In this document: positions 9,894 through 58,011 of the stretch, piece after piece
Numbering within the stretch: position 1 is the first letter of the stretch
Layout: each line of letters begins with the position of its first letter
Source: Cyanobacterium stanieri LEGE 03274
GTDB taxonomy: Bacteria > Cyanobacteriota > Cyanobacteriia > Cyanobacteriales > Cyanobacteriaceae
NCBI RefSeq assembly: GCF_015207825.1
Contig: NZ_JADEWC010000005.1
Span: 1-64,000, forward strand
Direction: 5' to 3'
Length of the DNA: 64,000 nucleotides
The notes under the pieces: model-generated
Seen by the model: only the letters and a program-made list of their open reading frames with translations
Database searches by the model: none
Told to the model about the DNA's origin: nothing
Position numbers and translations under genes: made by a program

Positions 9894-10056
9894 GGGGAAA
9901 AGCGATGATGGTTGTTGCTTTTAATTATAATTATGGTTTATTTTAGATTCTGTTATCAACCCTAATTGGGTTAAAATGTTATTTATACTTTTATTTATTA
10001 AAGATTTTATTGCTCTTAAAATGAGCATTTTTTCGATTTTATATGGTTAAACAATT

Positions 10057-11322
10057 ATGGCTGAATATGAAGGGTTTTTTGTCAGCAAAGAGTTTATTAG
10101 TTTATGTGAATCTCAGCTGATTTTATTGGCTCAAAATTTAGCGGTGCAAGAAAGTGCTATTTATTTAACGGAAAAAGTAAAAAGTGATGAACCAAGGTTG
10201 ATTCCTGTTATAGTTTATCCTTTTTCGAGGGATGAGGATAGTAACGATTTATTATTACTACCTGAGTCGGAGGATGGGGCAGATTTTGAGTTTAATTTAA
10301 TGGAGGAAAGTGATAGTGATTTAAATAATATTATTAATTATATTCCTGATTCTGCTTCCCCTTATCAGTTACTTTTACCCTTAATACATGATGATTCTAT
10401 GGTAGGTTTATTAGCTACTAATCGGGGTACAAAACCTTGGGGTAAAAGGGAGGTTTTACAAGTAAAAGAAGTTGCTCAAACCATTATTTTTGCGAGGCTT
10501 TTGGATCAAAAACAACAGATTTCTGAGCAACAATTAAAGGCTTATCAGCAATTGCAAAATTTACAAAATGATCATCTTGATGATTTTTTTCATCAATTAC
10601 GTAATCCTTTAACCGCTATTCGTACTTTTGGTAAATTGTTAATTAAACGATTAGTGGGAAATGATCGTAATTATACCATAGCACAAAGTATTGTTCGTGA
10701 GGGCGATCGCCTCTTAGACCTCATTGAAGATTTTAGTGAAGATTGGAAAGTAGTAAATAATAGCCCCCATCCTAGTCTAAAAGAAGGACAATCAACCAGC
10801 TTCTTCCTAACAGAAAATATCCAAAAATTAGAAAAAATAGACTTAAAACAACTAATTCAACCCCTCATCACAGGCATAGACTCCATCGCCCAAGATAGAA
10901 ATATTACTTTCATGATAGACATTGACGATAATTTACCCGCCGTTTCCAGTAATCCAAAAGCCTTAACAGAAATATTAAATAACTTATTAGATAATGCAGT
11001 AAAATATACCCCAGAAGGTGGTAAAATTTGCTTAGAAATTGTTAAACAAAAATCCACTAATCAAGGTGAAAAAATAGTCATCGAAATTAGTGATACGGGT
11101 TATGGTATTCCCCCCGAAGATCAAAAACATATCTTTGAACGTCATTATCGAGGAGTGCAGGAAAATAGCGACATTTATGGCACAGGTTTAGGATTAGCTA
11201 TTGTGAAGGAATTATGTGATAAAATGTCCATCGACATAGAAATTTTTAGTCCTTCTTTTTGGATCAAAAATCAACAGTTAAACGGTACTACTTTTTCTTT
11301 ATTTATTCCCATAGCATCATAG
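10057..11322 (+). CDS. Soluble histidine kinase, Hik2/chloroplast sensor kinase-like
   Basis: 421 residues without membrane spans: an N-terminal GAF-like domain (about 5-150), HisKA with His179 in FHQLRNPLTAIRTFGKLLIK, and an HATPase with N box EILNNLLDNAVKY, G1 DTGYGIPPEDQKHIFERHYR and G2 GTGLGLAIVKEL. The start EFISLCESQLILLAQNLAVQ and the HQLRNPLTAIRTFGKLL hairpin are what I recall of cyanobacterial Hik2, the relative of plant chloroplast sensor kinase. That family senses plastoquinone redox and salt or osmotic state. No response regulator lies nearby. Kinase identity is firm; the Hik2 assignment is moderate. Confidence 0.88.
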   Translation: MAEYEGFFVSKEFISLCESQLILLAQNLAVQESAIYLTEKVKSDEPRLIPVIVYPFSRDEDSNDLLLLPESEDGADFEFNLMEESDSDLNNIINYIPDSASPYQLLLPLIHDDSMVGLLATNRGTKPWGKREVLQVKEVAQTIIFARLLDQKQQISEQQLKAYQQLQNLQNDHLDDFFHQLRNPLTAIRTFGKLLIKRLVGNDRNYTIAQSIVREGDRLLDLIEDFSEDWKVVNNSPHPSLKEGQSTSFFLTENIQKLEKIDLKQLIQPLITGIDSIAQDRNITFMIDIDDNLPAVSSNPKALTEILNNLLDNAVKYTPEGGKICLEIVKQKSTNQGEKIVIEISDTGYGIPPEDQKHIFERHYRGVQENSDIYGTGLGLAIVKELCDKMSIDIEIFSPSFWIKNQQLNGTTFSLFIPIAS

Positions 11323-11393
11323 TTTTTTCTATTAATACAAGGTTGAAAATTTCCTCTTTTTAGCAATCTCAAATATTATCTTTTTCCTGTTAC

Positions 11394-12044
11394 CTACCTA
11401 ACCCCTAAATATTTATGGGTTTGTAAACTTAAACGCCATGAAGGATTATCCTTAATATAATCAAAAATTAATCCTTGAGCATCAGGGCTATTCCATTCTG
11501 GTTGTAAATACTTAATGGTATGACTAGAAACCTTTTCACCTTCAGATAAAGCCCATAGAAAGTCTTTCTCATTACCAATAACAACCTTTAATTCACTGGC
11601 ATGACGATAAATAGTTTCATGGGGTGTCTTATAAGGTTTGGGGGAAAATGTCACCCAATCAAAAACCCCAGAAAAAGGGTGAGCCCCTGATGTTTCTAAA
11701 TGAATATTTTTACCTGTTTTTCTCAACTCTATTGTTAAGGGATTTAAGTTATGTAATAAAGGTTCTCCTCCTGTAATTATAATAATATTAGTCTTAATTT
11801 TTTCTACTTTTTTAATAATTTCTTCAACAGTAAATAAAGGATATTTTTTCATTGACCATGTTTCTTTTTGGTCACACCAAGGACAAAAAACATCACAACC
11901 TGCAAGGCGAATAAAAAAAGCATTAACTCCCGCAAAAAAACCTTCTCCTTGTACAGAATGAAAGGTTTCTACCACAGGATAAGTGTATAATAAATGAGAA
12001 TTTTTTATATTTTTTGTATATTGTTCAGAAATAGTATTAGGCAT
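11394..12044 (-). CDS. queE: 7-carboxy-7-deazaguanine synthase QueE (radical SAM)
   Basis: QueE converts 6-carboxytetrahydropterin to 7-carboxy-7-deazaguanine in queuosine tRNA-modification synthesis. Residues 26-40 give the family start (VETFHSVQGEGFFAG). The 4Fe-4S/SAM cluster is bound by the CX3CX2C motif in GCDVFCPWCDQKETW, and GGEPLLH is the SAM-contacting GGE motif. Further on FSPKPYKTPHE and KVVIGNE match the family. 216 residues is normal. Other que genes are not in the window. Confidence 0.92.
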   Translation of the reverse strand: MPNTISEQYTKNIKNSHLLYTYPVVETFHSVQGEGFFAGVNAFFIRLAGCDVFCPWCDQKETWSMKKYPLFTVEEIIKKVEKIKTNIIIITGGEPLLHNLNPLTIELRKTGKNIHLETSGAHPFSGVFDWVTFSPKPYKTPHETIYRHASELKVVIGNEKDFLWALSEGEKVSSHTIKYLQPEWNSPDAQGLIFDYIKDNPSWRLSLQTHKYLGVR

Positions 12045-31155: not shown

Positions 31156-32058
31156 ATGGATAATAATTCATCAAAATTGCGAGGGGCGATCGCCCTTAAA
31201 AAGTTTTTAATTACCGCAGAAGTTACCCCTCCTAAGGGGGGAAATCCAGAAAGGATGTTGGAGGTGGCAAAACTACTTAAAAATCGAGTACATGGGGTTA
31301 ATATTACCGATGGTAGTCGGGCGGTGTTGAGAATGTCATCGGTGACAGCTTCTGCACTGTTATTGAGGGAAGGCATTGAACCTATTTGTCAGGTGACAGG
31401 GCGCGATCGCAACTCCATTGGTTTACAGGGTGACTTAATGGGAGCTTATGCCCTAGGAATTAGGAATATTTTAGCACTAACAGGAGATCCGATCAAAGCA
31501 GGAGATCATCTTCAAGCAAGGAGCGTTTTTGAGTTAGAATCTATTAAATTATTAAAGTTAATTAATCATCAATTAAACGAAGGTTTTGATATTAATAATA
31601 AGCCCTTACCTGACGGGAAATTAGATTTATTTGCAGGGGCGGCGGTTGATCCTCAGTCTAAAAGTTGGTCTGGATTACAAAGACGTTTTGAAAGGAAATT
31701 GGAAGCAGGGGCGCAGTTTTTTCAAAGTCAATTAATTACCGATTTTGATAAGTTAGATAAGTTTATGAACCAGATTGCGGTTAAGGGCGATCGCCCCATA
31801 TTAGCGGGAATATTCCTCTTAAAAAGTGCAAAAAACGCTCATTTTATTAACAAATACGTCCCAGGGGTAGAAATACCAGACCACATTATTAAACGTTTAG
31901 AAAATGCAAAAAACCCCCTCCAAGAAGGCATAAAAATAGCCTCTGAACAAGTTAAAATTGCTCAAACTATATGTCAAGGAGTTCATTTAATGGCTGTAAA
32001 AAAAGAAGAATTAATTCCCGAAATTTTAAATTTAGCAGGAATAAAACCCTTACAATAA
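31156..32058 (+). CDS. Methylenetetrahydrofolate reductase family protein
   Basis: 300 residues. The FAD-dependent MTHFR TIM barrel shows FLITAEVTPPKGGNPERMLE (catalytic Glu region), VHGVNITDGSRAVLRMSS, QVTGRDRNSIGLQGDLMGAY, IRNILALTGDPIKAGDH (conserved TGDPP-like), AGAAVDPQSKSW, GAQFFQSQLITDFDKLDKFM and HLMAVKKEELIPEIL. It reduces methylene-THF to methyl-THF for methionine synthesis. The N-terminal loop encodes GAIAL from an in-frame HIP1 site. It is the shorter prokaryotic form without a regulatory domain. Confidence 0.88.
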   Translation: MDNNSSKLRGAIALKKFLITAEVTPPKGGNPERMLEVAKLLKNRVHGVNITDGSRAVLRMSSVTASALLLREGIEPICQVTGRDRNSIGLQGDLMGAYALGIRNILALTGDPIKAGDHLQARSVFELESIKLLKLINHQLNEGFDINNKPLPDGKLDLFAGAAVDPQSKSWSGLQRRFERKLEAGAQFFQSQLITDFDKLDKFMNQIAVKGDRPILAGIFLLKSAKNAHFINKYVPGVEIPDHIIKRLENAKNPLQEGIKIASEQVKIAQTICQGVHLMAVKKEELIPEILNLAGIKPLQ

Positions 32059-42914: not shown

Positions 42915-45008
42915 CTAATAAACATCCATAATATTTTTTGAAATTTCAATAATTTTTGTTCTTAATATCTCTGGCTGATGCACTTTTACTTCACCACCAA
43001 AACCTAGTATCCAACGGATTAAATCAAAGTCATTTAATGACCATATGGGTAGTGTAACTTGAAAACGATAAGGTTTGTTATTATCTGGACTTTTATCTAA
43101 ACTAAATATAGAAGAATTATAAACACTAAAAGCAGGTTTAGTCATTTTCATTTGTTGAGTAGAAAATCTTTTTGTACCTTCGGCAATAAACTTAAAAATA
43201 TCTTCACTAAACCATAATTCTATTTTTACTTCAGCATTTTTTTTCTGCTTACTTAAAAATGTTTTTTGCTGATGAATGTCATTGCCAAGATAGATACCAT
43301 AACTAGCAGATAGCAGTTTATTTAAATGATTTAAGGCTTTTTTTTGTTGGATGATGGTTTGGGTTTGAGGGGTTTCTTGTTCGATATAAAGTCTATCTAA
43401 ACGCTCAAAACGAAATAATTTATCTTTTTCTCCTCCTTGGTGTTGAAAGCCGAGATACCAAGCAAAGTTATAAAATACTATCTGTAATAACCAAGCGTCA
43501 AAACCTCCGTTTGTTTCCCCTTCATATCTAGCACGATTGGCAAATTTATTCAGTTTAACTAATTTTCTTTGTTCAATGAGATTTTGTAGCCTTTCGGTTT
43601 GATTACTCAGGGTTTTTGAATCTAAGCTATCAGTATCTATCATAGACCTATTGGCGATCGCCCTTACGGGATAAATATAATTATCATCAAAATGGGCTAA
43701 TCTCATCTTACGCTCAAAGTCATTATATAAATTAAGGGCAAGGGGATCATCAATATTTTTGGCTTGGGTTTGCAATAGACGAAAAGTATCAATTAATTCT
43801 TGTGGAGAAAGAATACCTGTGCCAAGAAAGTAACCATTACGCATAGTATTAGGTAAAATTTGATAGGGTTTAAGGATATATTCAATATCTTTACGCAGTA
43901 AATCTCGCCTTGCTTTAAGATGCTTGATATGACATTTTTCCTGTGCCATTAAATGTACTGTTAAATTGGTTAGATGTCCTGATAAACTAGATTTTGTGGG
44001 ATCATCTTTATGTTGAGATTCAGGAAAATATTGATTGAGATACTCTGCTTCTACAGTAGGTAAAAAAGGATTATCAAGGATTGTTTTAATAGTATTTAAA
44101 ATTCTCTCAAAAGTATATTTATCAGAAGCATAATGGGTAACAATATCTTGATCAACTACTACAGTTTCTTGATATTTATAATCTTTTTCTCCACCATTGA
44201 CTAAACCATAATTTCCCAGAAATTTTAAATCTTCAGCAATGGCTAATTTATCAGCATAAATAGTGCCTTTTAATCTTGCCATTATAGCGGTTATTTCACT
44301 GATAGAATCATCAAAAGAGAGTAACTCCCCGAAAATATTTTCAATAATTTGAGGATAGGCATATTGTAAATTACCCAACTCAGAATAGGAAGCGAGGAGA
44401 GAAATCAGGTGTAAGAGGCGATCGAAATCCATTAACCTAGAATAACGATGGAGAGTAATGTTATCTACATTAGTGCGATTATGCCTATTAATAATCCGAC
44501 GATTTAACGAGTCTAATTTCTTCGTAATAAACGATAACTTATACGGAGTATCAATTTTAACTTCATATATATGAATAAAACCCTCAGCCACATGGGGGGG
44601 AAACCTTCTCAAAGATTTTGTCATCTCATCAATGATATATTCCGGCACTTGTCTATCTCTTTCTTGATTACGCTTTTTACAAGTATCCACGTCAGGATTG
44701 AGATACCAAGCTACCCAGTCAATTTTACCAACCCTTTCTCGTATTTTATTTAAAAAATCAAATCTCCATGGTCTTTTTGTATTAGTCGCATCATAAATTA
44801 TTGGCAAATTTTTGTCATAGGCTTGTTTAATTTGCTCAATAACTTTTTGCTCTATTTCTTGCCAATTTCCCTGTATTATTTCATCTCCATAAAGTTGTTT
44901 TCGGACGGTATCAGTGGAGATAATTTGATAATTACCCGTTTGAGCTAAAAGTTTAGCAAACGTAGATTTTCCTGAAGCTGGTACACCAATTAAAAAGTGA
45001 CATAACAT
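42915..45008 (-). CDS. Polynucleotide-kinase-like P-loop / WYL domain fusion
   Basis: About 697 residues from ATG 45008 (a TTG at 45014 abuts the preceding stop). The N-terminal kinase (about 1-160) has Walker A LIGVPASGKSTFAKLL, STDTVRKQLYGDE, the family motif YDATNTKRPWRFDFLNKI and an arginine lid ERDRQVPEYIIDEM. This resembles AAA_33/Pnkp-type RNA or DNA 5'-kinases. After a long helical region (about 185-440), a WYL-type part (about 510-560) shows FYNFAWYLGFQH and LFRFERLDRLYI. The gene is last in the cmr operon, six bases after the CARF-HEPN gene. WYL domains often sense ligands and regulate CRISPR loci; this fused form is unusual. Function unknown. Confidence 0.8.
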   Translation of the reverse strand: MLCHFLIGVPASGKSTFAKLLAQTGNYQIISTDTVRKQLYGDEIIQGNWQEIEQKVIEQIKQAYDKNLPIIYDATNTKRPWRFDFLNKIRERVGKIDWVAWYLNPDVDTCKKRNQERDRQVPEYIIDEMTKSLRRFPPHVAEGFIHIYEVKIDTPYKLSFITKKLDSLNRRIINRHNRTNVDNITLHRYSRLMDFDRLLHLISLLASYSELGNLQYAYPQIIENIFGELLSFDDSISEITAIMARLKGTIYADKLAIAEDLKFLGNYGLVNGGEKDYKYQETVVVDQDIVTHYASDKYTFERILNTIKTILDNPFLPTVEAEYLNQYFPESQHKDDPTKSSLSGHLTNLTVHLMAQEKCHIKHLKARRDLLRKDIEYILKPYQILPNTMRNGYFLGTGILSPQELIDTFRLLQTQAKNIDDPLALNLYNDFERKMRLAHFDDNYIYPVRAIANRSMIDTDSLDSKTLSNQTERLQNLIEQRKLVKLNKFANRARYEGETNGGFDAWLLQIVFYNFAWYLGFQHQGGEKDKLFRFERLDRLYIEQETPQTQTIIQQKKALNHLNKLLSASYGIYLGNDIHQQKTFLSKQKKNAEVKIELWFSEDIFKFIAEGTKRFSTQQMKMTKPAFSVYNSSIFSLDKSPDNNKPYRFQVTLPIWSLNDFDLIRWILGFGGEVKVHQPEILRTKIIEISKNIMDVY

Positions 45009-45014
45009 ATACAA

Positions 45015-46283
45015 TTAATATTTATTAGAAAGTATTTTTAGATTACGTAAAATAATTTTATTTAAGTAATCAAAAGGATTAATATCAGGCATTTTTTTAG
45101 TTAACTGTTGTAATATTTTAAACATTTCCCTATCTAAATCTTCAGGTTTTTTAATATCATTAATAGCTGTTATTTCATGAATAAATAAATTCCGATCTCT
45201 CACATATCTATCCAATAAATTTATTCTTTCTATTAATTCTTGTTTATTATAGTTATTATATTGTATGATTTTCATCATAACAGGAATATTTAAAAATCTC
45301 AGATTAGGGTATTCTTGTTCTATTTGCTCTTGTAATCTTCCATGATCAAAATCTCGTATATTATTAATAATATCCTTTTGAATATCTGGCCATCTTTTAC
45401 TTGCCCATTGAGACTCATCCCCAAATTGTTTCATTAGTAAATATTTCAATAAATTCTCATGAAAAGCCACTAACCACACCAAAAAATCAGCATATTCTTT
45501 TTGCTTTAATTTAACACTAGCTTTAAAATAAACTTCTTTAATCAGGGTAAGTAAGTTTTTTTGTCTCAATGCTCCAAGTTCATTAGCCAAATTTTTCATA
45601 ACCTTATCATCATGTTTATTAACTAAGCTATAGGCTTGATTAAAATTAAAGGATAATCTCAATTTTCCATAATTAATAGCATCCTCAATTTTAGGATGAT
45701 ATAGGCTACTATTTTTAATAGTTAATAATGCAGAACTGTAGTTATAATTTATAATTTGTTTTGTAATAATTTGTAAATCAAATTCCTTTTTAAGACTATT
45801 TAAATTAGTAGGAAAAACTCGCTCTTGATTGGATTTTAATTGATAGGGATTTCTAACTTGCCACACATTGCTATGGGGTGCATAACCTGCACTTTGCAAA
45901 ATAGCCCAAGTGGATTTCATTACAGGAGTACCAGAAGAGGCATTAAATGCTAATATATCCCCTTTCTGTTGAAGATTTTGAGCTATTCTCAGCGCTTTTT
46001 TTGCTTCTTGTATGGCTAAGGTTAAATTGACAGGATCATCGGATAATTGATTAATAACGGGTATTAATTGTATCTCATCACAAGAATAGTTTTCTTGTAT
46101 CCAATCTCTGGTTAATTCTGCTTCTGTGGATGTGCCTTCGGTATGTAATAAAATGGCATTTTTGATGGTTTGATTTTTGTGTTGCGATAATTCTTTTATG
46201 AGAGTAACAATTGATCCTTCTTCTTGGTTTTTTTGTGGAAAAGGATCTTGTTTGCCAACAAAAGATAGTAAGATTATTGCCAT
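45015..46283 (-). CDS. CARF-HEPN CRISPR ancillary ribonuclease (Csm6/TIGR02710-like)
   Basis: 422 residues. The N-terminal CARF-type Rossmann domain (about 1-165) has MAIILLSFVGKQDPF, NAILLHTEGTSTEAELT and the ligand-loop FNASSGTPVMKSTW. The helical C-terminus (about 170-422) carries a HEPN motif Rx4H at Arg364-His369 (RDRNLFIHE). Such proteins bind cyclic oligoadenylates made by Cas10 and then cut RNA non-specifically. Its place after the RAMP genes in the cmr operon fits. Domain calls rest on motifs only; TIGR02710 family membership is likely. Confidence 0.8.
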   Translation of the reverse strand: MAIILLSFVGKQDPFPQKNQEEGSIVTLIKELSQHKNQTIKNAILLHTEGTSTEAELTRDWIQENYSCDEIQLIPVINQLSDDPVNLTLAIQEAKKALRIAQNLQQKGDILAFNASSGTPVMKSTWAILQSAGYAPHSNVWQVRNPYQLKSNQERVFPTNLNSLKKEFDLQIITKQIINYNYSSALLTIKNSSLYHPKIEDAINYGKLRLSFNFNQAYSLVNKHDDKVMKNLANELGALRQKNLLTLIKEVYFKASVKLKQKEYADFLVWLVAFHENLLKYLLMKQFGDESQWASKRWPDIQKDIINNIRDFDHGRLQEQIEQEYPNLRFLNIPVMMKIIQYNNYNKQELIERINLLDRYVRDRNLFIHEITAINDIKKPEDLDREMFKILQQLTKKMPDINPFDYLNKIILRNLKILSNKY

Positions 46284-46350: not shown

Positions 46351-47985
46351 TTACCAAAGTTGTTTAAAGTCGCTTACATTAGAGCGTAAATATTGGATAA
46401 ATTCTCGAGTTTTTTGACTGTCATCAGGGAAGATAGTTAATAACTCCACATATTGCTTAGTCACTAAAATTTTGTTATCTTCTCGTTTAATTCTTCTAGG
46501 ATACATGCGATGAATTATTCTGCCGATACGCCCCATTCTGCCTGTTAAAGTTGACTGTTTAATGGTTTTATCTCTTTGATATTGTCCATGGAAAAAGTCT
46601 ATGGCTTCACTATCCAGTTTATTTTCAGCAATTCTTCCCCATACTTGTACATTACCTTTTTTGAAAGTTTCTCGCCAGTTTGCTCCTTGGGGATTTAACT
46701 GTTTTTTGTTGTAGGTAACCCATCCTTTCATATTACTGTGAACACTATTAAGGAATTTGGTTAAATCTTCTAATTCATTGACAGTAATAAATAAGCCTGT
46801 GGAGGGTTTAATAAATTCCCAATGACAACCAATCATGGGTTTTCTGCCATTTTCTAAGTAGTCTGGATAAAATAAACGATGATCAATTCTGCGCCATGAT
46901 TTACCGAAACCACCGATAAAGAGGCTAAATTGTAGTAGTTTTTTGAGGAATTTTTTAAGGTTGTTTTGTCTGGCGGTGGATATATTTTTCATGGATAATA
47001 TATCAAGTTTGCCATGATTGAGTTGATATATGGGCATATCAAAAGGGCGACGGGCGGGAGTGTAGGTAAAGTCGTCTAATTCTAAATCAATGGCATCAAA
47101 AACGATGCCCAATTCTCCCACTACTGCCCCGTTTCTCCCTGCAAATCCTCCCCAAAGTTGTTTGGTGATGGCTTCGGCAGTGTTAGCATCGGTGACACCC
47201 CCAAGGAGTCTGAGGGTATGCCCCCGTAGGGCGGCTTTAAACATATTGGCTCGAAATTCACCCTTTTTATTAATCAATTGGGAGGCTAATCCTTTCCCTT
47301 TGAGGTTGACGGTAAGGAGGGAGTTTAATTCGTGACGATTTGTTAATTTTACTTGACCATATCCAGCACTTACCCTTGTACCGAGTCCCTGTGCGATCGC
47401 ACCTTCCCATATTTGCCAAATTTCGTTCCATGCCCCATCACTTAGGGGCTTTTTGGAAGTAATACCAAAAGTAAATTTAGGCTTGTATAGGGAAATTTGA
47501 ATAAAAGCTGAATGGTTACCACCATTTTTTACCTGCCAATCCTCTTGAGGATGCACCACATCCACCAATTCCTCGAACATCCATTCTTTATCAGGATAAC
47601 CCCCATGGAAACGTAAAATACCGGCGTGACTTTCTCCATCTTTCTCATAACCACAATATAAAGCCCGTTTATCCTTGGGGCAACTACGCCAAAAAGCGCC
47701 CTTCATACTCGAACCTGGAAAATAAGGAAATCCCTTCGCACCAATCACAGGGCGAATTACCCCCTCATCTTGCCCACTGTTGGTAATAAAGCGCCATGTA
47801 AATTGATATTCCCTTGTTTCGACATTGTCACGAAATTGATAATCTTTTTCCTCTAATTCTTCCACCCATTCATCCGCCCAGTTTTCGGCATCTTGTACAT
47901 TGGCACCAGGTACTAATCTTTGAATTTGACAGCGCCCTGGTAACTGGCTTCTAAACATCAGGGGTACATTGTTATAGTTAGGCAT
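46351..47985 (-). CDS. Cmr6-like RAMP protein with an extra C-terminal RAMP-like domain
   Basis: 544 residues, about twice a normal Cmr6. The N-terminal RAMP has GFPYFPGSSMKGAFWRS (the Cas7 motif), a strand pair, and the glycine loop GLGTRVSAGYGQVKL. A second half follows: RRPFDMPIYQL, FSLFIGGFGKSWRRIDHRLF (resembling the Gly/Arg loop of Cmr1) and a basic tail. Since no separate cmr1 exists in this locus, this protein may fill both positions at the 3' end of the crRNA filament, as in the III-Bv variant of Synechocystis pSYSA. That comparison is from memory. Confidence 0.8.
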   Translation of the reverse strand: MPNYNNVPLMFRSQLPGRCQIQRLVPGANVQDAENWADEWVEELEEKDYQFRDNVETREYQFTWRFITNSGQDEGVIRPVIGAKGFPYFPGSSMKGAFWRSCPKDKRALYCGYEKDGESHAGILRFHGGYPDKEWMFEELVDVVHPQEDWQVKNGGNHSAFIQISLYKPKFTFGITSKKPLSDGAWNEIWQIWEGAIAQGLGTRVSAGYGQVKLTNRHELNSLLTVNLKGKGLASQLINKKGEFRANMFKAALRGHTLRLLGGVTDANTAEAITKQLWGGFAGRNGAVVGELGIVFDAIDLELDDFTYTPARRPFDMPIYQLNHGKLDILSMKNISTARQNNLKKFLKKLLQFSLFIGGFGKSWRRIDHRLFYPDYLENGRKPMIGCHWEFIKPSTGLFITVNELEDLTKFLNSVHSNMKGWVTYNKKQLNPQGANWRETFKKGNVQVWGRIAENKLDSEAIDFFHGQYQRDKTIKQSTLTGRMGRIGRIIHRMYPRRIKREDNKILVTKQYVELLTIFPDDSQKTREFIQYLRSNVSDFKQLW

Positions 47986-48006: not shown

Positions 48007-48432
48007 TTATTTTTTTAGTAATCGAATAAGTCCAGCTTGTTCAAAATGATGATCATTTGTTAATGCTTGAGTTAGTCTTTTTTCTTTCATTAAAATAAAA
48101 CTAGAATAATCAACCAAACTCCAATTTTTATCAGGACGATTTTTGAACAAATCCCAAGCTAAACTATCTATATATTCATCCACGTGAATTATGTTCACAT
48201 GGTTAGATATTTTTAAACTATTAATAAACTCAATAATTTTTACTCTTGGAATATGAAGAGGACTTGAGAGGAGAACGCTTAATTCTGAAATAATATAATT
48301 AGTGGTAATTAATTTCTTTTTATTCTGAATTATTTGTCTATAAATTTTGACAGCATCCTGATGGTAATTTTGGGAGGAATCTACTAAATTACCCCATCCT
48401 GAAGTATCTACAAAAATGTTAGATATTTGCAT
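48007..48432 (-). CDS. PIN-domain toxin (VapC-like)
   Basis: About 141 residues from ATG 48432, which begins 5 bases past the antitoxin stop; an earlier in-frame ATG (48456) would overlap it. The PIN fold shows the acidic catalytic residues in IFVDTSGWGNLVD, TNYIISELSVLL, LVDYSSFILM and ALTNDHHFEQAG. VapC-type toxins are RNases cutting tRNA or rRNA. It is paired with the small antitoxin upstream, both embedded between cmr5 and the cmr6-like gene. Confidence 0.85.
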   Translation of the reverse strand: MQISNIFVDTSGWGNLVDSSQNYHQDAVKIYRQIIQNKKKLITTNYIISELSVLLSSPLHIPRVKIIEFINSLKISNHVNIIHVDEYIDSLAWDLFKNRPDKNWSLVDYSSFILMKEKRLTQALTNDHHFEQAGLIRLLKK

Positions 48433-48436
48433 TGCA

Positions 48437-48676
48437 TTAATCAATAGACTCCACATGAGAATGTCCTAAATAGTAATCATGATTTTCCAACCAGTCACTA
48501 TTTTTACTATCAAATGCTCCGATAAATTGCTCGAGAGGATCTTCTTCTGCTTCAAGATTAACTTGATCTAGGTAATTAAGAACCATATTTTCCAAAGTTT
48601 CTCCCTGTTTTTTAGCTTTTTTAATAAGTTTTTGATAAATATTTTCAGGGACATTTAGTAGTAACTGATGAGTCAT
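48437..48676 (-). CDS. Antitoxin of the PIN toxin pair
   Basis: 79 residues, with an N-terminal ribbon-helix-helix-like part (HQLLLNVPENIYQKLIKKAK) and the acidic tail DPLEQFIGAFDSKNSDWLEN then HDYYLGHSHVE. This tail is what I recall of cyanobacterial VapB-type antitoxins. Adjacent to the toxin gene with tight spacing; it probably neutralises the PIN toxin and autoregulates the pair. Confidence 0.75.
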   Translation of the reverse strand: MTHQLLLNVPENIYQKLIKKAKKQGETLENMVLNYLDQVNLEAEEDPLEQFIGAFDSKNSDWLENHDYYLGHSHVESID

Positions 48677-48730
48677 AATAATAATCTTCCATTTATTTAA
48701 TGGCGAGGCAATTCCTCGCCCTACTTCTAT

Positions 48731-49123
48731 TTATTTATAACGTTGTGTCCACCACACCATAGATTCTGTTAACTGGGTCAAAACTGCGATCGCAACTTTG
48801 CGCTGTTCTTGATCAAAATTCCATAATAAATCTGCCATGGCTTTAATTTGTTGAGTATTATTAGCACTAACATTATCATTAGGTAAATTAACCCCTGCAA
48901 TTGCCATAATTTCTACCAACTTTTGCCAAGTATCACGCCAATACCGTGCTTTTTCCTCACTGCCACGGGTACCCTGTAAGCGAAATTGCTCACCCCAAAA
49001 ACGTTCCAAACCATAAGAAACCGTCATACGCATCTTATAACCCTGATTAAGCGCATCACTACCCCTATATCTCAATACTAAATCATGCGCCGCCTGATCC
49101 AAATTATACGAATTCCAAGCCAT
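48731..49123 (-). CDS. cmr5: Cmr5/Cas11-like small subunit
   Basis: 130 residues, all-helical. WNSYNLDQAAHDLVLRYRGS, MRMTVSYGLERFWGEQFRLQ and MADLLWNFDQEQRKVAIAVL then TQLTESMVWWTQRYK make up a helical bundle. Small Cas11 proteins line the type III effector and contact target RNA. Sequence similarity to classic Cmr5 is weak; the assignment rests on size, helicity and position between cmr4 and the other RAMP gene. Confidence 0.72.
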   Translation of the reverse strand: MAWNSYNLDQAAHDLVLRYRGSDALNQGYKMRMTVSYGLERFWGEQFRLQGTRGSEEKARYWRDTWQKLVEIMAIAGVNLPNDNVSANNTQQIKAMADLLWNFDQEQRKVAIAVLTQLTESMVWWTQRYK

Positions 49124-49218: not shown

Positions 49219-50025
49219 CTAAAGCCCTCGCAACTCCACCGCACAATGTCCAAAACCAATAGACTCCAAACCCCCTAGATAAATCTCCCCCGTAGTGGAA
49301 TCATCCTCAAAAGGTTTCCATTCCCCCTGATTTTTCTTGATAGCCACAGGAAAAATCATTTGTGTACCCTCTGGCAAAGCCTCAGTGTTGAAGAAAGCAC
49401 CTTTTACCGCTATTTTCTCATTTTCATCTAGGCGCACCCTGCTCTGACGATACAACGCCATATCGTGAATCATAGCAATTTCATCATCCGCCACCACTAC
49501 CGCAGGTAACTCCTCCCCAAAAGGAAACCATGGCTTTAAATTCTGTCTGGGATGATCAATGGTGAGGAAACCAAAGTTAAAAAATAGGGTAGGTCGATTT
49601 TCCACGGTCAATGGTTTTAATACCGATGAACCACTGTAAACTTGGGGAACAGGATCAGTAATACCCGTAATACGTTTATAGCGTTTTAATAGTTTAGGAC
49701 AACTTACCCATACAACGGGTTGCCCGGGGCAAAATACAGGAAGCCAAACAACAGAGGCATATTCAAACTTAACCAGCGATTCTGTGGTGCTGTCGGTAAC
49801 TCCCGCATCCGCATCATGTCCATACCATTGATTACTGTCGTCTTTACCCTTATTTAACAACATTTCTGAGCGAAAACGACCCCGAATAGAACTACCAGGA
49901 ATAACCCCTGTGAGGGTGAATTGATCTCGGAAAATAAGGTTTAAATTGCCACTTTCTTCCCCTGCGGTGGCGCCCACATGAACAGGTGCTAAAGTTTCGA
50001 TGATACCGTAGGCTTTTTTATACAT
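49219..50025 (-). CDS. cmr4: Cmr4-like RAMP protein (Cas7 backbone)
   Basis: 268 residues. It starts with a Cas7/Cmr4 pattern: LAPVHVGATAGEESGNL, then TLTGVIPGSSIRGRFRSEML (IPGSS-xRG), and ends GEIYLGGLESIGFGHCAVEL (Gly-rich loop). Cmr4 forms the crRNA-binding backbone and in known systems cuts target RNA using an Asp in the first loop. Here the matching stretch reads GNLNLIFRD, with Asn27/Asn29 instead of an obvious Asp, so slicing activity is uncertain. It starts 2 bases after the cmr3 stop. Confidence 0.82.
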   Translation of the reverse strand: MYKKAYGIIETLAPVHVGATAGEESGNLNLIFRDQFTLTGVIPGSSIRGRFRSEMLLNKGKDDSNQWYGHDADAGVTDSTTESLVKFEYASVVWLPVFCPGQPVVWVSCPKLLKRYKRITGITDPVPQVYSGSSVLKPLTVENRPTLFFNFGFLTIDHPRQNLKPWFPFGEELPAVVVADDEIAMIHDMALYRQSRVRLDENEKIAVKGAFFNTEALPEGTQMIFPVAIKKNQGEWKPFEDDSTTGEIYLGGLESIGFGHCAVELRGL

Positions 50026-50027
50026 TT

Positions 50028-51002
50028 TTAGTTAACTCCATTAATTGCTAAAGGTAAACACAAACCACTACCTACCCTTTTGAGGGAGTAGCCTTCTTTG
50101 GGAAACCAATCCTCATCCCAATCCCACCATGATTTATTGAGGGATTCTGACAACACATAGACGCTTCCTGCACTGACGGCATAACGCCCTCTGCCCATTC
50201 TTCCCCCCGCACGATAGCGGTAGGGTATCGCCCTGTCGGTAAGAATTTTGTCAATTTTGGGAAAGGAGTCGGCTTCGGGATAGCGACGGGAAAGACGATT
50301 TGAACCCCACACGGCGGACGAAATCAGTGCAAAGGCTTTGGTAATGGGTTGTTGGAATAGTTGTTGAGTCGGGGTATTAAGGGGGATACTGTTGATTTCT
50401 ACGAGGTGATTTTCACCACCGAAACGATACCAGCCGTCGGGTAACTGGTAGGTGGAAAGATACACAAGAGAAGTATCATCATCCATCTGCACGGCGTTTT
50501 CGAGAAACAATCCCCCTTCTTCGGTATGTCTTTCATCCAGTCTCATTTTGGGATGTAACATGGGTACGAATTGCCATGGGCTTGTTTCTGTGGCTTGATT
50601 GTCTTTTATTTCTTGGGCTGATTGATTCCATTGACTAATTTTTTGCCATTTATAAGCTGGGGTTAATTCTCTGTTTTTTCGTTGCCATTTTCCTTCGTTT
50701 ATTTCCCATTCGTCGCTTTCTTTTTCATCGATAATTTTTGTCCATGGAATGGGAATATAAAAGTCTTGAATGTTGTTTTCTTTTGCCCAAAATGGCCCTG
50801 CTATGTGCAGTTTATCTACTAAATTTTGTTGACTTTCTATGGCTAAATTTTTATTAGCACTGAAGAATAATCCTGATACTGTGGCAGGATCTGGGGGAAA
50901 TTTAGAACGCGATCGCCCCACAAGATTTTCAGGAGATAAAAAGCCTCCTGCACTACCGTAGAGATAACCTAACGGCTTAATATTTATTAAATATTTGAAC
51001 AT
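50028..51002 (-). CDS. cmr3: Cmr3-like protein (Cas5)
   Basis: 324 residues. The RAMP fold typical of Cmr3: LINIKPLGYLYGSAGGFLSP at the start, a DPATVSGLFFSANKN segment, the GWYRFGGENHLVEI motif (FGGE is the Cmr3 hallmark) and the Gly-rich RAGGRMGRGRYAVSAGSVYV near the end. Cmr3 caps the 5' tag end of the crRNA beside Cas10. Located directly between cas10 and cmr4, co-transcribed. Confidence 0.85.
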   Translation of the reverse strand: MFKYLINIKPLGYLYGSAGGFLSPENLVGRSRSKFPPDPATVSGLFFSANKNLAIESQQNLVDKLHIAGPFWAKENNIQDFYIPIPWTKIIDEKESDEWEINEGKWQRKNRELTPAYKWQKISQWNQSAQEIKDNQATETSPWQFVPMLHPKMRLDERHTEEGGLFLENAVQMDDDTSLVYLSTYQLPDGWYRFGGENHLVEINSIPLNTPTQQLFQQPITKAFALISSAVWGSNRLSRRYPEADSFPKIDKILTDRAIPYRYRAGGRMGRGRYAVSAGSVYVLSESLNKSWWDWDEDWFPKEGYSLKRVGSGLCLPLAINGVN

Positions 51003-51076: not shown

Positions 51077-51192
51077 AATACTCAATCCGTGAATCAAAAT
51101 ATACTTTAGTTCAATTCATTGAACAATAAACTGTTAGCCTTGTAATTAATTGCAAGGCTGGATGATATACTTTCTACATCGGATTTGGTATA
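51077..51192 (+). repeat. Dispersed hairpin repeat R1 (copy 4), downstream of cas10
   Basis: GTTCAATTCATTGAAC (51109-51125), CTGTTAGCCTTGTAATTAATTGCAAGGCTGG-like stem and the end TATACTTTCTACATCGGATT. The same ~110-bp unit in the same orientation lies at 52886-52995, so the two copies bracket cas10. Confidence 0.7.
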
Positions 51193-51196
51193 ACCT

Positions 51197-52750
51197 TTAA
51201 CCGCAAAACTGCCATCCTACTTCAACTAAATTATTAACCCAAATATTAAAATTATTTAGATCTTTATCTCCTACTAATTTTTCACGTTTGCTAAAAAGAT
51301 AATCACCCTTATTCTGAAAATAAATATCTAGTAAAGCCTTACTTAAACTAACATCTTTTTCAAATTTTAAAGAAGGATTAAAACTAATACTATGACGGGC
51401 TTTTAATTGAACTAAATCATTGTAAATATGAGCCCAATTTTCTTGTTTGTCTCTATCTTCATATGCCGACAACAAACCTAGATCATCCCATGGCACAGTC
51501 CATTCCACATATTGACCACTATTAAAGACAATACGCAGGGTTACTCGATTTCTGCCCTTATTTTTCGAGACTTTTTCCGCCTCTCGACAATGTTGTAAAA
51601 CATCCCGTTGCGGTACACTTCCCGCCACCCACACAAAGCCCACACTTAGGGTAATATCCTGACCGTGTTTTTGCCATTCTTGCTTAAGAGTGGATAGCCA
51701 TCTTAAGGCTTTCTTTTTCAATTCTGGGGAATCATCTACATCCCTTTTTTTACTATAAATAACCCCCAAAAAATCATCTCCCCCTGCATAAATAATACGT
51801 CCTAAATCACGGGGAAAATTATTACTTAAATTGTCCCCCCATTGACGCATGGCATCACTAAAATCTTTAATTTTTTGTTCTCCATTAGGTTCATTAAGCA
51901 ATTTTTTAAGATGATCACCTACTTTGTCACCATCCCCCATAAACCATCCTGTCCATTGTCCTGTAATATTATTTTCGGGGTCTGGTTTACGGCTTAATTC
52001 GCTAAACTTTTCAGGAAAAGGAAGATCATTTTTAGAAAATTTTTGGGGTATTCCAGTATTAGGTAAAGTGATTAATCTTTTAACTAATTCTGGTATGCTT
52101 AATCGTTCGTTTAAGTCTAAAACTTTGCCTTCCGTGGCTTCTTCTGTGCTGTTTTCTAAAACTGCGGATAATTTAAGATAAAAATCATCAATCTGTTGTT
52201 TATCTTGAGCTTTATTTAACGTTTTTGGGTTACGATGTCCACTTCCTAAACGGTTAAATGCGATCGCATCTGTACCTGTTAAACTGGAACTTTCACCAAT
52301 CCAATTAATACCAACCCAATCCCGAGATAACTTGTTACTTTCCAAGTCTTCGATGGCGGAAGTAATAGAATCCCCCTACCCCCAAAAAAATTCCCAAGTA
52401 TGGGTTGCCCACATTTCCCAGTCTCTATCCCAAGTGTAAACCACATCAGACACATGACTTTCAATCCATGCTTTACACTCCCAGAGGACTTTTTTCCAAG
52501 AGTTAACCAAGGTTTCTTTAACCAACTCCTGCGGAAAATCCCCTTTAATAAGAATACGATTCGGCATTCCTTTTGCCAACTTCGGCAAACCGGGAGAAAT
52601 AATCTTACATTGGTTATCCTCTGCACTATCAACGATTTTTTTGCTTAGATAAGACAAAATCAAAGATGCACCATATAAATCCCTCAGCTTACGGGATTTT
52701 TCTATAAATCCCTGCACTGGAGAAAAGGTAATTGCTGTATAAACTACCAT
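51197..52750 (-). pseudogene. cmr2: cas10/cmr2 (HD-less) interrupted by an in-frame TAG
   Basis: One open frame of 518 codons is broken only by TAG at 52376-52378 (codon 125). Before it lies Palm 1 (FSPVQGFIEKSRKLRDLYGA then SLILSYL). After it, in the same frame, come DSITSAIEDLESNKLSRDW, WFMGDGDKVGDHLK and the cyclase/polymerase motif YAGGDDFLGVI (GGDD codons 51773-51784). No N-terminal HD nuclease exists, so DNA cleavage is not expected; cOA synthesis by GGDD would be. A downstream restart at TTG 52345 could give a 382-residue protein. A CAG-to-TAG change, sequencing error, stop read-through or a two-piece Cas10 are all possible. Confidence 0.85.
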
Positions 52751-53129
52751 TTAAATTTTGATTAATATTATTCCCTTTACTATAAAACAATTTTTAGGAT
52801 AAGAATCGTGTTTTAAGCGAATGTGAATTTTCTTTATATTGCTTTGTTTTTCTTTGCAAAAGTCAATAAATAAATTAGAGTAACTATACTAAATCTGTCA
52901 ATCAAAATATACCTTAGTTCTATTCAACGATAAACTATTAGTCTCATAATTCATTGCAAAGCTGGATTATATACTTTCTGCATCGGATTTGATATTAAAT
53001 AGACTGTGGTAAATACTAACTAAAATCTTTACCCCACATATCTTTAGCCTTATTCGCATGAAAAAGATGTAAATTATTAAAAAAATCTGTACATTAGTAA
53101 TTGTTGAGATAAACAAGGGAAGTAACTCG
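52751..53129. other. Divergent intergenic region between the two CRISPR arms
   Basis: About 380 bases carrying the promoters of the minus (cas10-cmr) and plus (membrane gene) arms and one R1 repeat (52886-52995). No other gene was recognised. A ribosome-binding-like AAGGGAAG precedes the plus-strand start at 53130. Confidence 0.55.
52886..52995 (+). repeat. Dispersed hairpin repeat R1 (copy 5), upstream of cas10
   Basis: Direct copy of 51077-51192 with more mismatches: TTCTATTCAACGATAAACTA, GTCTCATAATTCATTGCAAAGCTGG-like stem, end TATACTTTCTGCATCGGATT. Confidence 0.65.
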
Positions 53130-54485
53130 ATGGATAATGAGCAGTTTGCACCAAAGGAAAACGAGGAAATCATAATTGTTGAGTCTGCTGATTTAGAAGA
53201 CATTGACATCGTCAAATCATCTACCAATAAAAACGAAGCCCCAGAAACTAAACCTTTAGAAGTAGTTAATCAAGAAGAAACAGAAGAAAATATCAAAGAA
53301 TTACCTGACTATATCGCCTTAATTAAATGGATTGAAACCAATCCTCGTTATGCCCACTTGGTGGCGATGGTTGATAAAGAAGGAGAAATAAAACCAAGTC
53401 AACCTGATAATCTATTCGTCAAAATAATCAAAAATTATTTATTAAGCATTCCCACGGAATATTATGGCAAATCCTATGTTACAGATAAGGTGAGAGATGA
53501 TGCGGTGGTGGTTTCCCGTCTTATTAATGCTAGTAATTTGATTGATTTTGTGGGTAATAGTCCATTGTGGTTTTTTGCTTTCAAGTCGTTGGGTAGTGGT
53601 TGGGCATTTTTTATTACTATTGTTATGAATATTATTATTCTTAAGTTTAGTAATGATTTATCAACTAAGATTAATACAAGTAACAAAAATTATCATTTAG
53701 TCAAAAAAGCAGGGTTATTTTCTGGGTTAGTTATTTTAAATGTTATTCAATCTGTCGCATCGGGCATTGGGGTAGAGTTATTTAATAATCAGTCGAAATT
53801 AACGGAAGTAAAAGCCCAAGAAATTGTTGAGAAACAGATGATAATTGAACAAGAAAATATGGAGGTTTTTAAAAATGCTACTTCTCCTCAATATGTAGCA
53901 GTAAAAGAACGATGTGAAAAAGGACAAGAAGAATTAAATAGTCTTCCTCATTCTAATCCCCGTTGGTATTCTTTGTATGCAGAAATGCACGGCACATGGC
54001 AAGAGCACACCCAGGATTGGGATAATGTACCCATGGAACAATTACCCGTCTGTCGTCAATTGGTGCGATTACAAAATGAGTTATTTGTTAATTATGAAAA
54101 TGCTCAAAATAACTTTAATAATTTGTTAATCGCCCGTAATGATGTTGGTAATGATCTGTTATTTTTAGATAGTAGTTTCCCTAATGTTTATCAGTCTCAT
54201 TTCACCCCTGAAGGGGAGTTAAAATCTTCTCTGGAATTGGTTACTTTGGCAACGAATAGTTTTTTAACCAAGTTGTTTGATGGAAAATTAGGGGCGATCG
54301 CCCTTCCCCTGTTTATATTATCATTCTCAGTAATCAGTAGCTTTGTGTCTTGTATCATCACTTGGAATTACTCCGAAGACGAATACGTAAAACTATCTTG
54401 GGATGAAGAATTAAAACAAAAAAGAGATTTATGGCTAGAAGCCCAATGGCGAAACCTAATCAACGACACTCAACAAAATCAATAA
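53130..54485 (+). CDS. Membrane protein of unknown function, CRISPR-arm gene 1
   Basis: 451 residues, no family recognised. An acidic disordered N-terminus (about 1-60) is followed by a soluble part with IALIKWIETNPRYAHLVAMV. Hydrophobic segments are PLWFFAFKSLGSGWAFFITIVMN-like (about 150-180), LFSGLVILNVIQSVASGIGV (about 195-215) and LGAIALPLFILSFSVISSFV plus SCIITW (about 390-420). Between the last two lies a ~170-residue helical/coiled region, giving three or four membrane spans with a large loop, an architecture like DUF4407-type proteins. It opens the plus arm upstream of cas1 and is a candidate type III-linked membrane effector or anchor. Confidence 0.7.
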   Translation: MDNEQFAPKENEEIIIVESADLEDIDIVKSSTNKNEAPETKPLEVVNQEETEENIKELPDYIALIKWIETNPRYAHLVAMVDKEGEIKPSQPDNLFVKIIKNYLLSIPTEYYGKSYVTDKVRDDAVVVSRLINASNLIDFVGNSPLWFFAFKSLGSGWAFFITIVMNIIILKFSNDLSTKINTSNKNYHLVKKAGLFSGLVILNVIQSVASGIGVELFNNQSKLTEVKAQEIVEKQMIIEQENMEVFKNATSPQYVAVKERCEKGQEELNSLPHSNPRWYSLYAEMHGTWQEHTQDWDNVPMEQLPVCRQLVRLQNELFVNYENAQNNFNNLLIARNDVGNDLLFLDSSFPNVYQSHFTPEGELKSSLELVTLATNSFLTKLFDGKLGAIALPLFILSFSVISSFVSCIITWNYSEDEYVKLSWDEELKQKRDLWLEAQWRNLINDTQQNQ

Positions 54486-55917: not shown

Positions 55918-56226
55918 ATGTTAATTTCTTGGAAAGGAAGCCTCATCAAAAGTATTGCCATGGGCATAAGTAATGGCACCGTTACCCTAATATTGTTACT
56001 CATTGCCCCCATGGGATTAGCAGGAGTAATCACTACCACCATCGCCGTCATGCTCACCACTCTAGCAGTAAGTTTAAGTTTTGACCTTATTACCCTCTGG
56101 TTAATCAAATCCTCCGAAGTCAATTTTTTAGATCATCCCTATAAAAATCCTAAAGGGGGGCAAATTTCTTCAGCAAAAAAAATGGAAATAGAACTTAATC
56201 GACTCAGAAACCTTGAAGATGAATGA
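55918..56226 (+). CDS. Small membrane protein overlapping cas1, CRISPR-arm gene 4
   Basis: 102 residues. Two long membrane helices (AMGISNGTVTLILLLIAPMG and VITTTIAVMLTTLAVSLSFD plus LITLWLI) are followed by a cytosolic tail ending in a charged helix (SSAKKMEIELNRLRNLEDE). Its stop codon overlaps the cas1 start as ATGA (56223-56226), so translation of the two is probably coupled. Family unknown. The coupling suggests a role tied to adaptation or expression of cas1. Confidence 0.65.
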   Translation: MLISWKGSLIKSIAMGISNGTVTLILLLIAPMGLAGVITTTIAVMLTTLAVSLSFDLITLWLIKSSEVNFLDHPYKNPKGGQISSAKKMEIELNRLRNLEDE

Positions 56227-57215
56227 ATACCGTTTATGTATCGCAACAGGGTTGTTATTTATCCCTCAAAAAAGAATTATTGATAGTAAAACATGGTAAC
56301 AACATCCTTGAAGAAGTACAAATGCCCCTAGTAGAACAAATTTTGATCATGGGTAAATCCCAAATTACCACCCAAGCCATTCGCGCTTGTTTAATCAAAA
56401 ATATTCCCATTGTTTACCTATCTAGGATGGGCTACTGCTACGGGCGTACCATCTCCATTGAAAGGGGTTATCGTTATCTAAGTCGTTATCAACAACTTCT
56501 AGACTCTAATAATAAAATAACTGTTGCAAAAGCTATCGTGAAAGCAAAACTAGCTAATAGTCGAGTGATTTTGCGTCGGCAACAACAAAGAAAACCATCC
56601 ATCGATGTATCCCAGGCCCTCAATATCCTTAGCTATTTAATGGACAAAGTATCTCAAGCCTTAACCATTAATCAACTAATGGGTTATGAAGGCGCCGGGG
56701 CAAGTGCTTATTTTTCCGCCTTAGGGCAATGTATAACCAATCCTGACTTTATTTTTTTTGGGCGTAGTCGTCGCCCCCCCGGGAATCCCGTTAATGCGCT
56801 TCTGAGTTTTGGTTATCAAATTCTTTGGAATCATCTCTTGGTATTGATTGAATTACAAGGATTAGATCCCTATTATGGTTGTCTCCATCAAGCAAATGAG
56901 CGTCATCCTGTGTTAGCTTCTGACTTAGTAGAAGAATTTCGGGCTTCCATTATCGATTCTTTGGTGCTTTATTTGGTAAATAAAAATATAATCAACAGCG
57001 TAGATGATTTCACTTTTAAGCATGGCGGTTGTTATCTTAACCACAGTGGTAGAAAAAAGTTTTTAAATGTTTTTATCCAAAGGATGGAGGAATTAATCGA
57101 TACGGGTAGGGAAACCAAACAACCCCGCTGGGATTTGTTAACAAGGCAAGTAAGACGCTATAAAAATTTTGTTTATCATCCTGTTTTCGGGTATCAACCT
57201 TATCGTATTCGCTGA
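56223..57215 (+). CDS. cas1: CRISPR-associated endonuclease/integrase Cas1
   Basis: 330 residues. The integrase of spacer acquisition; forms a complex with Cas2. Catalytic metal-binding residues are Glu156 in LMGYEGAGASAYF, a His in GCLHQANERHPVLASDLVEE (His222 or 228) and Glu237/238 in LVEEFR. The N-terminal beta domain (NTVYVSQQGCYLSLKKELLI) is typical. Not fused to reverse transcriptase or Cas6. Stop TGA overlaps the cas2 ATG by one base. Confidence 0.97.
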   Translation: MNTVYVSQQGCYLSLKKELLIVKHGNNILEEVQMPLVEQILIMGKSQITTQAIRACLIKNIPIVYLSRMGYCYGRTISIERGYRYLSRYQQLLDSNNKITVAKAIVKAKLANSRVILRRQQQRKPSIDVSQALNILSYLMDKVSQALTINQLMGYEGAGASAYFSALGQCITNPDFIFFGRSRRPPGNPVNALLSFGYQILWNHLLVLIELQGLDPYYGCLHQANERHPVLASDLVEEFRASIIDSLVLYLVNKNIINSVDDFTFKHGGCYLNHSGRKKFLNVFIQRMEELIDTGRETKQPRWDLLTRQVRRYKNFVYHPVFGYQPYRIR

Positions 57216-57496
57216 TGCTTTTTTATCTAATAGTTTATGACATCACCGACGACAAACGCCGAAAAAAAATTGCGGATATTCTCGAAGGTTATGGGGTGAG
57301 GGTGCAATATAGCGTTTTTGAATGTGTTTTAAATCTTAAGCAATATCGGGAGTTGAAAAAAAGGTTACGAAAGGTTTTTAAACAGGAGGAAGACAATCTG
57401 AGATTTTACCCTATTTCGGATCATACTCTTAGAAAGGTGGAAACATGGGGACAAGGTTTGCCCCTCACCAATCCCCTAAAATCAAAGGTTATCTGA
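57215..57496 (+). CDS. cas2: CRISPR-associated protein Cas2
   Basis: 93 residues, ferredoxin-like Cas2. LFYLIVYDITDDKRRKKIAD carries the conserved Asp, followed by LEGYGVRVQYSVFECVLN, and DNLRFYPISDHTLRK near the end. Dimeric scaffold of the Cas1-Cas2 integrase. The start overlaps the cas1 stop by one base; the leader and array follow within 180 bases. Confidence 0.96.
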   Translation: MLFYLIVYDITDDKRRKKIADILEGYGVRVQYSVFECVLNLKQYRELKKRLRKVFKQEEDNLRFYPISDHTLRKVETWGQGLPLTNPLKSKVI

Positions 57497-57676: not shown

Positions 57677-58011
57677 GTCGCTATCCTTCGGGGTAGTGGA
57701 ATTAATGGAAACGGCTCCCCCTGCTGACTCGGCTAACTCCTCAAATACATCAGGGGTCGCTATCCTTCGGGGTAGTGGAATTAATGGAAACTGCTGAGAA
57801 CGCTCAACACTTGGGCGAAATCTTGAACATCTGCGTTACCGCTTGTCGCTATCCTTCGGGGTAGTGGAATTAATGGAAACGCACGGAAATCAGAAGTTTC
57901 GGACATTTTTTGACCTTTTAATGTCGCTATCCTTCGGGGTAGTGGAATTAATGGAAACGTTCATCATTTTCCTTGATAAGAAACTCCTGAGCCCTACGAG
58001 TCGCTATCCTT
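57677..58011 (+). CRISPR. CRISPR array: four complete 36-nt repeats plus a truncated fifth
   Basis: Repeats are identical at 57677-57712, 57756-57791, 57845-57880 and 57923-57958; the fifth matches only its first 12 bases (58000-58011). They begin GTCGCTATCCTTCGGGGTAG and end AATTAATGGAAAC. Spacers are 43, 53, 42 and 41 nt. CTATCC-TTCG-GGGTAG forms a 6-bp hairpin capped by a C(UUCG)G tetraloop. Orientation: downstream of cas1-cas2, with the degenerate end distal. No cas6 gene is in the window, so processing by a host RNase (RNase E is known to do this for the Synechocystis III-Bv array) or a distant Cas6 is needed. Confidence 0.97.

Follow-up and report, generated by a model that had tools for sequence, protein, structure and literature searches.

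The cas10 (cmr2) gene of a type III-B CRISPR locus in Cyanobacterium stanieri LEGE 03274 is interrupted by an in-frame amber codon. The interruption is best explained by a recent nonsense mutation (CAG to TAG) that abolished the function of an ordinary gene for an HD-less Cas10, and we put the probability of this at roughly three in four. The gene lies in the window, by which we mean the whole 64,000-nt stretch of DNA that we analyzed (the beginning of contig NZ_JADEWC010000005.1), and we refer to this locus as locus A. On the minus strand, from 52750 to 51197, there is a single frame of 518 codons whose sole interruption is the TAG at codon 125 (CTA on the plus strand). No second lesion, either an indel or a further stop, was seen in cas10. 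We will refer to the window's genome as G000, to a genome from the same genus as G004, and to two genomes from the same family as G010 and G014. The parts of the gene are:

51197..52750, minus strand: cas10/cmr2, HD-less, interrupted, 517 amino acids if read through (identified from the frame and its TAG, from Pfam, NCBIfam, and PADLOC matches, and from a fold match to Cmr2 structures)
52376..52378, minus strand: in-frame amber codon TAG, codon 125 (CAG in G004; CAA in G010 and G014)
52379..52750, minus strand: translated part, 124 codons, comprising Palm 1 minus the end of its last strand
51197..52375, minus strand: part after the stop, with the remainder of Cas10, including Palm 2 and the GGDD motif (residues 323-326 of the read-through protein)

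A preliminary description of this sequence stated that both sides of the TAG encode Cas10 in one frame, and this is correct. Upstream of the stop there is a match to Cmr2_N (Pfam, E = 3.6e-11), and downstream of it there is one to Cas10-Cmr2_palm2 (Pfam, E = 1.2e-15). The read-through protein matches PADLOC's Cas10b (PDLC02051) across residues 2-516 (E = 1e-210). An AlphaFold2 model of the read-through protein, built from 28 homologues (pLDDT 81.5), has the fold of Cmr2 from P. furiosus (3w2w_A; Z = 29.2, rmsd 3.6 over 435 residues). The alignment begins at residue 218 of the P. furiosus protein, past the HD domain, so the protein is HD-less. The proposal of a 518-codon HD-less Cas10 that needs no frameshift is thus borne out. 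The N-terminal domain of Cmr2 and the Palm 2 domain with its GGDD share one frame, but at the DNA level only. Because the TAG at codon 125 prevents a continuous frame for one Cas10 protein, we class the gene as a disrupted type III-B Cas10/Cmr2.

The stop had also been placed between Palm 1 and GGDD. It does precede GGDD, but in the model it falls within a strand (residues 119-126) that is the last of Palm 1 and closes the first ferredoxin-like domain. So the stop seems to cut Palm 1 near its end rather than separating it neatly from Palm 2.

We compared the gene to its homologues, as the preliminary description had suggested. Among the searched genomes of the window's genus, one other (G004) has the locus. 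Its cas10 is 93% identical and uninterrupted, with CAG at codon 125. The codon is CAA in both G010 and G014, so glutamine is the ancestral state, and the amber codon is a single C-to-T transition (CAG to TAG) in one lineage. As the homologue from G004 is continuous in the same frame, with CAG, a frame that is open by chance is not an issue. We searched for close cas10 alleles on plasmids or viral contigs and found none. Another proposal had been a two-piece Cas10. None of 36 further full-length homologues, nearly all of them from named cyanobacteria, is split or contains an internal stop. These homologues and the genes from G004 and G014 are single frames, and the gene from G010 is broken elsewhere, so we rejected a two-gene Cas10.

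The neighbors of cas10 in locus A are:

50028..51002, minus strand: cmr3, intact (PADLOC among the bases for the name)
49219..50025, minus strand: cmr4, intact (NCBIfam match among the bases)
48731..49123, minus strand: cmr5, intact (PADLOC among the bases)
48007..48456, minus strand: PIN-domain gene (Pfam PIN) inserted in the operon, toxin-antitoxin-like, with a small ORF upstream
46351..47985, minus strand: cmr6-type RAMP gene, 544 amino acids, intact (PADLOC Cmr6, E = 5e-212)
45015..46283, minus strand: CARF-HEPN effector (Csm6/Csx1 type), intact; frameshifted in G004
42915..45014, minus strand: accessory gene with an AAA/kinase-like N-terminus and a WYL/WCX C-terminus
56223..57215, plus strand: cas1, intact (named from sequence; homologues in the same place in G004, G010, and G014)
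57215..57496, plus strand: cas2, intact (named from sequence; homologues in the same place in G004, G010, and G014)
57677..57958, plus strand: CRISPR array with 4 repeats and 3 spacers

The presence of cmr3, cmr4, cmr5, and cmr6 next to cas10 fits a type III-B Cas10/Cmr2. (We did not find a separate cmr1 at the locus; the 544-amino-acid RAMP protein matches Cmr6.) The operon's genes and the array are intact, as had been described, but the array is short. None of its spacers is shared with G004, G010, or G014, and a phage search with two of the spacers gave zero matches. None of the three spacers matches elsewhere in the genome with up to 3 mismatches, so we rejected self-targeting as the driver of the loss. 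A promoter and terminator scan around cas10 gave no signal above chance.

Several other features of the locus are recorded here for completeness. The PIN gene and a small antitoxin-like ORF lie inside the cmr operon (48007-48720). The PIN gene is about 99% identical to its counterpart in G004, with zero synonymous changes, while the divergence of the neighboring cmr genes is 6-16%. We did not find the PIN gene in G010 or G014. These comparisons point to recent horizontal exchange of the PIN gene. A gene for a 451-amino-acid protein beside cas10 (53130-54485) matches C3a124 from PADLOC, a family of unknown function (E = 5e-170). It is conserved in G004, but neither G010 nor G014 yielded a match. 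On either side of cas10 lies a copy of a MITE-like repeat, one just 3' of the gene (51078-51191) and one upstream of it (52886-52998). In 0.87 Mb of the window's genome we counted about 30 matches to this repeat family, versus 1 in 1.24 Mb of G004.

How old is the lesion? We polarized the changes on each branch by using G014 and G010 as outgroups. In the 392 codons after the stop, there are 14 synonymous and 6 nonsynonymous changes on the window's branch, versus 16 and 9 on the branch to G004 (Fisher p = 0.76). The region after the stop appears to be still under purifying selection, which implies that the stop is recent. Under simple assumptions, at most about 20-30% of the window's branch was free of selection. 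Given these counts and the single lesion, we rejected an old pseudogene. A caveat is that the constraint does not discriminate between a recent mutation, a base-call error, and a product that is still translated.

A sequencing or assembly error, in which the true base is a C that was misread in a draft genome, is unlikely. The stop lies in a homopolymer-rich tract (G5-C-A-G5), it is the only internal stop among the genes that we compared, and the remainder of cas10 looks functional, all of which would fit an error. A miscalled base or a minority variant at the TAG would also count against recent loss. But the difference is a substitution and not a change in the length of a homopolymer. To obtain a base rate, we set about 0.87 Mb of the window's genome against 1.24 Mb of G004. 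Across 224 orthologues (77,299 codons), the window's genome has one genuine internal stop, the TAG in cas10; the remaining candidates are differences at the ends of genes. (In the same orthologues, G004 has two internal lesions: a one-base frameshift in csm6, and another in the gene that corresponds to 31156-32058 of the window.) A single such stop across the 77,299 codons implies a low error rate, which speaks against a poor assembly and also against general read-through of TAG, with the limitation that the comparison covered only about 27% of the genome. The assembly's estimated completeness is 100% and its contamination is 0.12.

Alternatively, Cas10 might still be made, either full-length or in two pieces, by read-through of the TAG or by restarting after it. 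Such a C-terminal part would show the same constraint that we observed, which counts against recent loss. Residue 125 is variable across the Cas10 family, so any inserted amino acid would be tolerated, and ATG 271, where Palm 2 starts, has a weak AGGA ahead of it. Nevertheless, we consider continued production of Cas10 very unlikely, because we found no suppressor, restart site, or split homologue. A whole-genome search, followed by ARAGORN, found 39 tRNAs, none of which has a CUA, UUA, or UCA anticodon. We therefore rejected a suppressor tRNA, whose activity the preliminary description had suggested looking for. TAG is an ordinary stop codon in this genome (it terminates 105 of 449 long ORFs), and the 27% of the genome that was compared contains no further internal TAG, so we rejected genome-wide recoding as well. 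As for reinitiation, the first in-frame restart codon after the stop is TTG 136, which has no Shine-Dalgarno match, and the context of ATG 271 lies within a conserved coding stretch. With no good restart site past the stop, reinitiation was rejected, and no homologue is split at codon 125. Neither the read-through event nor the two-piece Cas10 of the preliminary description finds support in these comparisons. Overall, its interpretation is partly supported: its other proposal, recent inactivation, is backed by CAG or CAA in the relatives, the lack of any split homologue, the purifying selection after the stop, and the lack of a second lesion.

We then considered the consequences of losing Cas10. 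Translation would end after 124 residues, before the last strand of Palm 1 is complete, and the GGDD cyclase would not be made. The complex of locus A would not be assembled normally, and the locus would be silent and would have no cyclic oligoadenylate of its own. The preliminary description expected that crRNA-guided binding proteins would stay in place, and this may not be so. In Synechocystis 6803, knocking out cmr2 removes all of the crRNAs from CRISPR3 (PMC3575380), so locus A may have lost its complex and its crRNAs, and not its signal alone. The crRNAs from locus A are probably not stable. Since cyanobacteria lack Rho (PMC13289151), we would not expect strong polarity on the downstream genes of the operon.

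The silencing of cyclic oligoadenylate signaling, which had also been proposed, would be expected for the signal from locus A but not for all of the signaling in the cell. Another contig (C14) encodes a second type III-B system with an intact Cas10 (626 amino acids, with GGDD), its own arrays, a CARF-RelE protein, and Csx1. (This system is part of a defense island, L050, L234, and L235 of G000, that also includes DruF-like and McrBC-like genes; the arrays are two small ones.) A search of G004 with P0001 detected no second Cas10. Because the Cas10 from C14 is intact, cyclic oligoadenylate could still be made, and silencing of all such signaling is unlikely. The second system would keep type III signaling going, and its redundancy may have allowed the loss of cas10 from locus A. 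Its messenger could even reach locus A's CARF-HEPN effector and activate it in trans, if the messenger species is the same for both. Signaling between type III loci has been proposed and is so far inferred statistically (PMC11229360). The two type III-B loci might even now form one network, in which the intact CARF-HEPN RNase of locus A has lost its own sensor and cyclase and is switched on only by the messenger from the second locus's Cas10, while sister lineages are independently dismantling the same signaling arm. We view this network as improbable.

Locus A is present in four genomes from the family. It is intact in G014, and each of the other three has one lesion in the signaling arm: the TAG in cas10 (G000), a one-nucleotide frameshift in csm6 (G004), and a one-nucleotide frameshift in cas10 (G010, which is a metagenome-assembled genome). 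The frameshift in csm6 (L245; G004 C1:1207492-1208750) is at an A8 tract, and slippage of one A by RNA polymerase would restore the frame. In G010, one G is deleted from a G-tract at FMGDGD (L096, on contig C22; the identical cas10 of L039 is at 10001-11544). The accessory gene downstream in G010 is shortened and is followed by transposase-like sequence. Across 391 genomes searched, no other match to the CARF-HEPN gene has an internal stop, with a few of the matches being partial.

This pattern is suggestive: if activation is costly, then selection might repeatedly break the signaling arm (cas10 or the CARF-HEPN gene) in this family. This idea is compatible with the recent loss of cas10 and does not compete with it. 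Selection against signaling is plausible because, in a staphylococcal type III-A system, mutating the palm of cas10 abolishes the fitness cost and mutating the HEPN domain of csm6 reduces it (PMC5754349). Also, csm6 is one of only two genes in G004 with internal lesions, out of 224. However, there are just three events, chosen partly post hoc (the first was picked by the preliminary description), one is from a metagenome-assembled genome, and the two indels, of one base each, lie within or beside homopolymers. As cas10 and csm6 account for 939 of about 2,628 cas codons, all three lesions would fall in them by chance about 5% of the time, based on gene length alone. The lack of self-targeting spacers (at up to 3 mismatches) also counts against repeated selection. 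The frameshifted half of csm6 in G004 has 5 synonymous and 12 nonsynonymous changes, versus 3 and 2 (p = 0.31), and we rejected relaxed selection there as not significant. (In G004, cmr6 is likewise rich in changes.) We consider repeated selection a lead, possible but doubtful, and not a proven explanation.

In its Palm 1, Palm 2, GGDD, and full-length fold, locus A's Cas10 resembles type III-B Cas10/Cmr2 proteins such as P. furiosus Cmr2 (PDB 3w2w and 4w8y), but it lacks the HD domain and is interrupted at codon 125. Another similar system is CRISPR3 from Synechocystis 6803, a cyanobacterial type III system with Cmr2 (sll7090) whose repeats have the same length and the same 3' end, GGAAAC (PMC3575380). 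There, Cmr2 is intact, the deletion was made in the laboratory, and cmr5 is absent, while it is present here. Loss of the cyclase is also reminiscent of types III-C, III-G, and III-H, in which the Cas10 palm is inactivated throughout the subtype; III-G and III-H have replaced catalytic residues and have also lost their CARF effectors (PMC12669027). Locus A, in contrast, still has an intact GGDD at the DNA level and an intact effector, and its stop is probably recent.

At present, the finding amounts to a single, as yet unverified stop codon in a draft assembly. If confirmed, it would be a natural single-base knockout of cas10 in a genome that retains both the CARF-HEPN effector of the locus and a second type III system in intact form. 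Cross-talk between type III loci, so far a matter of statistical inference, could then be tested directly. The lesions in the sister genomes suggest that the costly signaling arm may be the first part of the locus to be lost.
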